NCBI RefSeq assembly: GCF_000258425.1
Contig: NC_017461.1
Coordinates: forward strand, 1,084,949-1,148,948
Reading direction: 5' to 3'
DNA: 64,000 nt
Source: Fervidicoccus fontis Kam940
GTDB taxonomy: Archaea; Thermoproteota; Thermoprotei_A; Sulfolobales; Fervidicoccaceae
Part shown: positions 2,710 through 16,370 of the stretch, one piece after another
Layout of the letters: each line of letters opens with the position of its first letter
Numbering within the stretch: the stretch's first letter is position 1
Notes under the pieces: model-generated
Told to the model about the DNA's origin: nothing
The model's database searches: none
Seen by the model: only the letters and a program-made list of their open reading frames with translations
Position numbers and translations under genes: made by a program

Positions 2710-3129
2710 ATGCTATCTGCAAGCCAAATACAAGTTCCGAGCGACAGTTACTCAACAAAGATTTACGCATACAAACCTAAAATTACGTTAATTTTGGACT
2801 GGAGTTATGAAAGTAGTGAAACTATAAAAAATGTATTGAAAGCAAAAAAGACGCTCTTCATGAATTATCTTATTGATATAGATGTCGATATGATAAATCT
2901 TCAGTTAATAGCACCAAGTGAAAATTTAAACAATAACTATAACCCGCCCGCTGTTTTTTTGAATGGAAAGCTACTTTCAGAAAGCAGAACAGTAAGCGAA
3001 GAAGAAATTATTGACTTGGTGCTAAGCGAATCAATTTCAGAGAATAAAGATCTACAAATTGAAATTCCATCGTCAATAAAGCAAAATCCTGTATTTGGAT
3101 CTTCTGCCCTCGCGTATAGCTCTCTATAA
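2710..3129 (+). CDS. Hypothetical protein, possible thioredoxin-like fold
   Basis: I do not recognise the family. The 139-residue product has a strand TLILDWSY near residue 27, a helix, and a PPAVFLNGKLL segment near residue 78. That last segment resembles the cis-proline strand of thioredoxin/glutaredoxin folds, but there is no CxxC motif, so a redox role is unlikely. There is no signal peptide or membrane segment. A TATA-like AT-rich tract lies 40-60 nt upstream, and a GGGGTC sequence precedes the ATG. It converges on the HTH gene, with 3 nt between stops. Confidence 0.6.
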   Translation: MLSASQIQVPSDSYSTKIYAYKPKITLILDWSYESSETIKNVLKAKKTLFMNYLIDIDVDMINLQLIAPSENLNNNYNPPAVFLNGKLLSESRTVSEEEIIDLVLSESISENKDLQIEIPSSIKQNPVFGSSALAYSSL

Positions 3130-13889: not shown

Positions 13890-14972
13890 ATGTTATCTAA
13901 AAATCCATTGGAAATTCCTATGGATAGGAAATTAAAAGCTAATGAAATTGCCGATGCGTTGAGGCTTTCGATAATTGCTGAATTGGACGCAATAAATCTA
14001 TATTTGCAACTTTCAAAGTCTGTTGAAGATGAGAACGTTAAGAAAGTTTTTGAAGACGTAGCTAAGGAAGAGAAAACTCATGTCGGAGAATTCCTTGCAC
14101 TTCTTAATTCTTTAGATGCGGAACAAAAGAGTGAGCTTGAGGCTGGACTCAAAGAAGTAAAGGAGCTAACTTCTATGAACATAAAAGATGACCCAAGCAA
14201 CTTAGTATCCAATGAGGAAAAGAAAGAAGAAAATAAGGTTAAGAACAGTAATGGAGATTTTCTTTCTATTGTTGTAAATGAATATCAAAAAGCTCTTGAA
14301 GAAATGAGGATTTTCAGAAAATATTTACCTATAAAAAGAATCGAAAAAGGCACTCAGGCTATATTTGTTGAGAAAAGTGATGAAAAAGGAGAAAGAGAAA
14401 TAATTCCTCTAAATGAGATAGAGTCTTATTTTATAGTCTCGCAAATGTCAATAGATTCTATAGATAAAAACGGGGAATTGGAGGCTCCCGACTTATACAG
14501 ATCTGCGTTGGAACTATCTAATAATGAAGATCGCTTGATACTTGAGACTATATTGAATCGCGAAGGTACGATAAAGTTACCAGTTGACGAGTGGAATGAA
14601 CCGTCTCAGTCTGTAAATGATATAGCTAATGCTTTTACGGAGATTTTAAGATCAGGAGCAACTAAGCCATTTGCATTGTTTATAAGCCCGAAAAAATATG
14701 TGAAGCTTTTGGCAATAAGCGATAAAACTGGAACTACAGATCTTGAGAGGATCAAAGCTTTTATTGATAATATAGTTATTCTTCCGATTTTACCTGATAA
14801 TGTGACCATAATAGTTTCATTGCAGCCCAGAATTCTGGAATTAGTAATTGGCATTGACAGTGAAATAAGATATCTCGGTCCAGAAAAGGGTTACCACAAC
14901 TTTAGAGCAAGGGAAAAGCTCGCTTTAAAAGTAAAGGATGCGAGAGGAATAGCTATATTGGAGGGGAAATAA
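13890..14972 (+). CDS. Encapsulin shell protein with N-terminal fused ferritin-like domain
   Basis: Residues 1-~100 are a two-helix ferritin-like (EncFtn/rubrerythrin-like) domain with IIAELDAINLYLQLS (Glu31) and AKEEKTHVGEF (E61-x-x-H64). A charged linker of about 20 residues follows. Residues ~123-360 are an HK97-fold encapsulin (linocin-M18 type): YLPIKRIEKGTQAIFV, EIESYFIVSQ, ILNREGTIKLP, FALFISPKKYVKLL and a C-terminal GIAILEGK. The order and the opening residues closely match the Pyrococcus furiosus fused encapsulin (family 1) as I remember it. The expected product is an iron-storing icosahedral nanocompartment with ferroxidase inside. ATG 13890 is preceded by GGTG. It is 2 nt from the next ferritin-like gene. 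Confidence 0.93.
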   Translation: MLSKNPLEIPMDRKLKANEIADALRLSIIAELDAINLYLQLSKSVEDENVKKVFEDVAKEEKTHVGEFLALLNSLDAEQKSELEAGLKEVKELTSMNIKDDPSNLVSNEEKKEENKVKNSNGDFLSIVVNEYQKALEEMRIFRKYLPIKRIEKGTQAIFVEKSDEKGEREIIPLNEIESYFIVSQMSIDSIDKNGELEAPDLYRSALELSNNEDRLILETILNREGTIKLPVDEWNEPSQSVNDIANAFTEILRSGATKPFALFISPKKYVKLLAISDKTGTTDLERIKAFIDNIVILPILPDNVTIIVSLQPRILELVIGIDSEIRYLGPEKGYHNFRAREKLALKVKDARGIAILEGK

Positions 14973-14974
14973 AG

Positions 14975-15451
14975 TTGGTTGAAGAAGAAATTAAGAAAGA
15001 AGTGAAGGAATTCGCAATTTTAGAAAAAGAATATGCTAAAATCCTTTTGGAGCTCTCAAAGAAGATAAAGCATAAGGCTTTGAGTTCTATTTTTGAATCA
15101 CTCTCAAAAGATTCTGAGAAGCATGCCACATTGTATGAAACGATATCAGAGCTATTAAGCAACGAACAGCCTTTTATTTCGGAAGAGGACTTTCGGCTGA
15201 TTGAACGTACCATAAATGAACATATAACAACAGAAGCAAAAATGATAGAAGAATCTAGAAAAATTCTAAATAACATAAAAGATCCTAGGGTTAGGTTATT
15301 AGCCGCTATCATATACGAAGATGAAGAAAAGCACCATAAGCTTCTACTTACTGTCAAGGAAGACATTGCAAAAAAAGAGACATTTTCTGAAACAGATTTC
15401 TGGAATATGGTTTGGAGAGATAGCCCATATCACGGAGCCCCAGGAGGATAA
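14975..15451 (+). CDS. Ferritin-like four-helix protein, probable encapsulin partner
   Basis: A 158-residue four-helix bundle: helix A with E17/E19, helix B KDSEKHATLYE, helix C TTEAKMIEES (Glu87), helix D IIYEDEEKHHKLLL (E117-x-x-H120). In helix B the usual first Glu of ExxH is Ser47, so one iron ligand may be lost or replaced by Glu48. After the bundle comes an extended tail WNMVWRDSPYHGAPGG, a candidate docking peptide. TTG 14975 is 2 nt after the encapsulin stop, with GGAGGGGAAA before it. Co-transcription and a cargo or accessory role are inferred. Confidence 0.82.
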   Translation: MVEEEIKKEVKEFAILEKEYAKILLELSKKIKHKALSSIFESLSKDSEKHATLYETISELLSNEQPFISEEDFRLIERTINEHITTEAKMIEESRKILNNIKDPRVRLLAAIIYEDEEKHHKLLLTVKEDIAKKETFSETDFWNMVWRDSPYHGAPGG

Positions 15452-15456
15452 AAAAT

Positions 15457-16370
15457 ATGTTATTCTTTTTTTTGACTGCAGAAACTCTTGATATCCTTAA
15501 ACTTATAGTCAAAATACCTGTTTTAGAACTAAATAAAATCAAACTAAAAAAATTACAGATTATTTGTGAAGCTCGAATAACTCAATCCTACTGGCAGTCA
15601 CAAAGATAGAATAGCTCTATACATGGTAAGTTCTGCAATCAAAGAGCATAATCTCAAACTAGGAGAATATATAGTTGAAGCTTCGAGTGGAAATACTGCT
15701 ATATATGTTGCATTTGTAGCGAGAAAATTAGGTCTTAATCCAATAATTGTAGTTTCCCGGCAAACTAGTGTAGCAAAAGTTAAATTAATAAAGATTTTAG
15801 GAGCTGAAATATTTTACGGTTCAGATGATAAGGATGCTGATGATTATTATATCAAATAAGCAAAAAAAGATCGCCGAAGAGAAAGGAGGAGTTTTTTTGA
15901 ACCAATACGAAGATAAAAATAACTTCAGGGCACATTATGAAACAACAGGTCCAGAAATATGGAGTCAAATGAATGGAAAAATTGACGCTTTTGTGATGGG
16001 AATTGGAACAAGGGGAATGTAATGGAAGTTGGAAGATACTTGAAAGAAAAGGACAAAAAAATTATTGGCATAATACCGGAAGGTTCTAGACTTGCAGGGG
16101 AAAAGGTTATGAAAGAATAGAAGGTTTAATGCATAAAGATATTCCGGGCCTTCTTGATAAAAAAATCTTGGATGGCTTAATTGAAGTAAAATTTTCAGAT
16201 GCAAAAGAAATGACGGAAAAATTAGCAAAAGAAGAAAAGGGATTCTTGCCGGTTATTCCTCTGGTGCTAATGTGTATGCTTCACAAAAATTAGCAGAGAA
16301 TATTGAAAGCAATTCTACGATTGTAACTGTAATAGTAGATTCCATCTTAAGATATTTGACTGAATCATGA
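15457..16370 (+). pseudogene. Decayed cysteine synthase/PLP fold-type II gene
   Basis: Pieces of one protein lie in order in different frames. They are VKIPVLELNKIK, then (after a shift) LFVKLE-stop-LNPTGSHKDR with the PLP lysine, then EASSGNTAIYVAFVARKLG and [20 protein letters not shown]. After these come [14 protein letters not shown] and [11 protein letters not shown], then RYLKEKDKKIIGIIPEGS and a final SSGANVYASQKLAENI. At least one nonsense codon and several frameshifts interrupt it. An ATG at 15457 behind GGAGG, 5 nt after the ferritin-like gene, shows it was once the third gene of that operon. Confidence 0.85.

Follow-up and report, generated by a model that had tools for sequence, protein, structure and literature searches.

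The window, a 64,000-nucleotide stretch of Fervidicoccus fontis Kam940, carries on its forward strand a gene for a fused ferritin-encapsulin shell protein followed by a second ferritin-like gene, here termed P2, which begins 2 nt after the shell stop codon. The first-pass annotation had described this closely set pair, and both ORFs were recovered where it had placed them. The features of the locus are listed in order of position.

13890-14972, + strand: shell gene ORF, ATG start, 360 aa, coordinates as in the first-pass annotation
13890..14189, + strand: FLP, an EncFtn-type two-helix ferritin-like domain (residues 1-100; E31, E61, H64), from alignment and PDB 5n5e
14190..14339, + strand: low-complexity linker of the shell gene between the FLP and HK97 parts (about residues 101-150), poorly aligned with 2e0z
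14340..14972, + strand: HK97-type family 1 encapsulin shell domain, from PF04454 (over residues 165-344) and 2e0z
14960-14966, + strand: Shine-Dalgarno-like element of P2 (GGAGGGG), still within the 3' end of the shell gene, read from the sequence
14975-15451, + strand: P2 ORF, TTG start, 158 aa, predicted tandem-hairpin ferritin-like protein, from the model and family alignments
14978..15160, + strand: P2 hairpin 1 (residues 2-62; E17, D46, S47 replacing the ExxH Glu, K49, H50), from the FLP offset of +14 and invariance
15182..15370, + strand: P2 hairpin 2 (residues 70-132; H83, E87, D116, E117, H120, H121), from the FLP offset of -56 and invariance
15383..15448, + strand: P2 C-terminal module (about residues 137-158, ...FWNMVWRDSPYHGAPGG), motif WxxxW...HGxPGG, lower-confidence fold
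15466..15473, + strand: run of 8 T, 15 nt past the P2 stop, possible archaeal terminator, read from the sequence

The GGAGGGG element and the T-run after the P2 stop codon fit a two-gene unit. Just 3' of the operon (15623-16022) a pair of ORFs that overlap in different frames matches successive parts of a PF00291 PLP-dependent enzyme, apparently a broken cysteine-synthase-like gene.

The shell protein passes the PF04454 cut-off (E=2e-23, 83 bits against 24.3), and its closest solved structure is the P. furiosus virus-like particle (2e0z), matched over the full length with E=9e-52. The FLP domain matches P. furiosus EncFtn (PDB 5n5e, E=2e-26), its ligands E31, E61 and H64 are unchanged in an alignment of 23 relatives, and the protein also matches the Rubrerythrin profile (E=1e-8). 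Two NCBIfam models fall below their curated cut-offs on the shell protein, encap_f1 (NF041155) with 86.9 bits against 100 (E=1e-24) and EncB_fam with E=4e-22, the encap_f1 score being consistent with a divergent fusion class. Judged by homology, the shell gene belongs, with nothing unusual about it, to the known family 1 encapsulins with an N-terminal FLP (EncFtn) domain, and the earlier reading of a two-helix FLP (E31, E61xxH64) joined to an HK97-type shell is borne out. Relatives of the fused shell are known to form T=3 iron-storing capsids (PMC8346489, PMC11202242), and PMC8346489 reports that most members of the fused class are crenarchaeal and that ferritin-like genes are frequent neighbours. 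The P. furiosus FLP-fusion encapsulin (2e0z, 5n5e) has the same domain order with the FLP ligands retained, whereas the described P. furiosus system has no P2 component.

Predicted fold and ligands of P2

P2 is modelled as four helices with a mean pLDDT of 88-91 and a C-terminus of lower confidence. In profile searches the P2 protein of the window passes no curated family cut-off and has no match to Rubrerythrin (PF02915). The same Pfam family gives weak matches in 15 of 24 P2 relatives (best 2e-6), and a P2 profile matches bacterioferritin and, weakly, EncC (E=0.0012); together with a gapless register against FLP, these matches argue that P2 is ferritin-like. Each gapless comparison returns a single clear register, expressed in alignment columns as +14 between hairpin 1 and FLP, -56 between hairpin 2 and FLP and 70 between the two hairpins, with runner-up offsets scoring below 0 and with BLASTP and profile comparison agreeing on both hairpin-FLP registers. 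E17/S47/H50 and E87/E117/H120 of P2 therefore correspond to E31/E61/H64 of FLP. The P2 ligand spacings of 30 residues (E to E) and 33 residues (E to H) equal the EncFtn values; in rubrerythrin and bacterioferritin these spacings are 33 and 36. Register and spacing therefore describe P2 as two EncFtn-type hairpins joined in tandem within one chain, of which hairpin 2 gives a complete ligand fit and hairpin 1 fits with S47 in place of the helix-B Glu. This Ser is present in 63/63 P2 sequences, and D46, H83, D116 and H121 are invariant or nearly so.

The predicted helices and the ligand register together place P2 in the ferritin-like superfamily, with paired hairpins carrying Glu and ExxH residues as predicted metal ligands. 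The first-pass description of a four-helix ferritin-like protein agrees with the predicted helix count and the superfamily, but P2 appears not to be a standard ferritin bundle. The B-C loop that joins the hairpins has a length of only some 7 residues, and comparison of the P2 models with solved ferritins and rubrerythrins gives a TM of at most 0.48, an rmsd of about 20 Å and no E below 0.03. PDB fold comparison yields no significant match for either P2 model, and the PDB matches of the window P2 protein include no close P2 relative. The single-chain diiron four-helix proteins rubrerythrin, bacterioferritin and symerythrin share ExxH-type ligands and weak profile matches with P2, whereas P2 differs from them in the short 7-residue B-C loop, in the 30/33 ligand spacing as in EncFtn, in the change of the helix-B Glu to Ser and in the WxxxW...HGxPGG tail. 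Elsewhere in the window's genome a 311-aa frame (G000:C1:896015-896449) gives weak matches to the P2 profile as well as to the FLP profile and probably encodes another ferritin-like protein. Because one P2 ligand Glu is Ser, the earlier suggestion of two different iron sites in one compartment is graded no higher than plausible.

The C-terminal tail of P2

The first-pass annotation had taken P2 for a co-packaged or shell-docked protein. As a genuine cargo, P2 would be loaded through a non-canonical peptide in its tail, or would enter shells by binding the internal FLP hairpins, which its own hairpins match, so that two kinds of iron site would share one compartment. Other encapsulins carry two FLP cargos, and M. 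xanthus EncA with EncB and EncC (7s5c, 7s8t; PMC11202242) resembles the window operon in having more than one ferritin-like protein per encapsulin. EncB and EncC are, however, single-hairpin proteins with canonical targeting peptides, whereas P2 is built of two hairpins and lacks such a peptide.

The tail itself provides evidence on both sides. It occupies the usual place of cargo peptides, is predicted with low confidence (pLDDT 53-76 across the last 18 residues) and is the most conserved part of the protein, with mean conservation of 0.72 for about residues 137-158 and 0.78 for the last 16 residues, against 0.50 for the bundle. W147, H153, G154, P156 and G158 are invariant across 63 P2 sequences. 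However, the canonical targeting pattern [LF]x[VI]xx[LI], as described in PMC11202242, occurs in 0/63 tails, and genomes without a shell, like those of Asgard archaea, show the tail conserved to the same degree. On these two grounds P2 was rejected as a canonical encapsulin cargo.

That the tail might also form part of other large proteins was rejected: in 121 genomes of the order and 250 of the phylum, it was met on frames of P2 size, the exceptions being short frames that either stand alone or are remnants. Apparent remnants are present in two genomes (G089, G098); the P2 copy of G098 (L143:839-1590), whose tail occupies a frame of its own about 250 nt further downstream, is apparently a second copy in decay. 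In three species of genus g31 the tail comes without the P2 bundle, as stand-alone ORFs of 34-41 aa ending in TPFHG[AT]PGG.

L144:2782-2883, - strand: stand-alone tail ORF of G064
L162 about 2937-3050, + strand: stand-alone tail ORF of G065
L163 about 2335-2460, - strand: stand-alone tail ORF of G056

The TPFHGAPGG core differs between G056 and G065 by four synonymous and no non-synonymous changes (chance of all being synonymous, P=0.004), a small-sample hint that the stand-alone peptide is under selection. That such peptides occur in genomes with no shell or a shell fragment only (G064, G056) also speaks against a loading function. The tail would have to engage a partner distinct from the shell, or make contacts inside P2 oligomers. 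A bolder proposal, which we hold to be doubtful, is that the HGxPGG C-terminus may be a transferable tag, for docking or for modification, that serves an archaeal partner and is selected also as a free micropeptide, and that P2, itself a pseudo-dimer of FLP, may join with FLP hairpins in mixed iron sites inside and outside shells.

Distribution and linkage

Orthologues with 40-57% identity to P2 are spread across Thermoproteota, and P2 is therefore not a chance ORF. Among 121 genomes of the order that are at least 90% complete, P2 is present in 56 (two weak or broken hits not being counted), the shell in 61 and FLP in 80. P2 occurs with the shell in 39 genomes (OR 4.5, p about 1e-4) and with FLP in 47 (OR 5.1, p about 1e-4), in tests that ignore phylogeny. 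No shell was detected in 17/56 P2 genomes of the order, short of the consistent co-occurrence expected of a cargo, and 7/56 have neither shell nor FLP. Many Asgard genomes likewise contain P2 with no shell nearby.

P2 lies directly 3' of 11/39 fused shells, that of the window included, and of 3/8 unfused FLPs, with gaps of -20 to +72 nt. Where a genome holds both P2 and the shell, the two are adjacent in 10/39 cases and apart in 29/39. The refuting condition set beforehand, that P2 is not conserved beside encapsulins in relatives, counts against P2 as shell-docked cargo: besides these 10/39 and the 17/56 P2 genomes without a shell, P2 is absent from 4/4 shell-bearing relatives in the window's own family. 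These four absences might suggest that the adjacency is due to chance or to an annotation artefact, an explanation made highly improbable by the strong conservation of P2 and by the eleven fused-shell cases in several families of the order, to which Thermofilales add further ones, with Thermofilaceae (L092, L095) having the same operon as the window. The P2 tree demands at least 9 switches between adjacent and non-adjacent states, on which basis a single origin of the pairing was rejected; an ancestral linkage with many losses could still fit. Wolframiiraptor genomes (L111, L113, L114) have a divergently oriented second P2-like gene directly upstream of P2.

The locus in genus g13 separates the shell from its neighbour. 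Three genomes share flanking genes there: G034 has FLP-shell then P2, G044 has a 105-aa FLP then P2, and G015 has FLP-shell without P2. In a DNA alignment of G034 with G044 the FLP parts and the P2 parts match and the shell is missing in between, and the complete single-contig genome of G044 has no PF04454 match anywhere. Either the shell was lost from G044 while FLP and P2 were kept, or it was never present, and under both histories the FLP-P2 unit does not need the shell. Shell-less adjacency of FLP and P2 is also found in G025 and G085, and the two lie within 3 kb of each other in G064, G076 and G077. Because this operon exists where the shell is absent, which weighs further against P2 as cargo, it is the FLP part, rather than the shell, to which P2 is linked. 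FLP is not an obligate partner, since P2 also occurs without it in the seven genomes lacking both.

That broad distribution without FLP or shell, the repeated switches on the P2 tree and the flavodiiron-type protein (ODP beta-lactamase fold) and peroxiredoxin genes downstream at the g13 locus could also describe an independent rubrerythrin-like stress protein, co-regulated with FLP and the shell and in no physical contact with either. Beyond g13, enrichment of redox genes near P2 is weak (13 such neighbours over 426 kb of inner sequence, compared with 9 over 683 kb of outer sequence, from a biased choice of queries). We consider an independent stress protein unlikely, as separate families and orders repeatedly show the adjacency, their genes overlapping or nearly so, and the FLP-P2 linkage persists without the shell.

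A proposed role for P2 beside the ferroxidase

We favour, with somewhat better than even confidence, P2 as a metalloprotein that partners the FLP ferroxidase independently of the shell, within a two-gene iron/oxidative-stress operon. By analogy with relatives, gene 1 would form a T=3-type shell with FLP (EncFtn) ferroxidase hairpins on its inner face; as shown for those relatives, the hairpins would oxidise Fe(II) and the shell would store the mineral. P2, a single-chain tandem of two hairpins whose homology to FLP is shown by the register, would form a metal site made asymmetric by a Ser in place of one canonical Glu, and would work alongside the ferroxidase, most likely as a cytosolic partner in iron and peroxide handling. 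The WxxxW...HGxPGG tail would serve as a docking module for a partner that, judging by the distribution of the tail, is not the shell and need not be FLP. In genomes with a shell, P2 could lie either inside or outside it.

The earlier interpretation of the operon is retained in part. An iron-type FLP-fusion encapsulin with a second ferritin-like gene, in a pairing that recurs in several families and in Thermofilales, is supported; P2 as a shell-docked cargo is not, given the P2 genomes without a shell, the equal conservation of their tails and the missing targeting peptide. Tight and recurrent adjacency to fused shells in these groups speaks for enclosure, but the sequence evidence does not favour it and we think genuine cargo improbable.

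The combination had also been presented as uncharacterised in Crenarchaeota. It is known in outline, as a class of operons pairing a fused shell with a ferritin-like gene was reported computationally in PMC8346489, whose main text does not describe the partner; the tandem-hairpin nature of P2, the Ser substitution, the tail module with its stand-alone form and a linkage that follows FLP and not the shell are new. No description of P2 was found in the literature searched. In a cultured Thermoproteota lineage (PMC12542729) encapsulin-like compartments of 35-40 nm are described, with ferritin-like genes present and an encapsulin gene undetected.

P2 represents a widespread archaeal family, extending from Thermoproteota to Asgard, of predicted metalloproteins with an invariant C-terminal motif and no curated name. 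The occurrence in related species of FLP-shell with P2, FLP with P2 and FLP-shell without P2 at one locus means that the roles of shell and partner are separable, and the question is no longer which second protein is packed as cargo but why a ferroxidase travels with P2 even without a shell.
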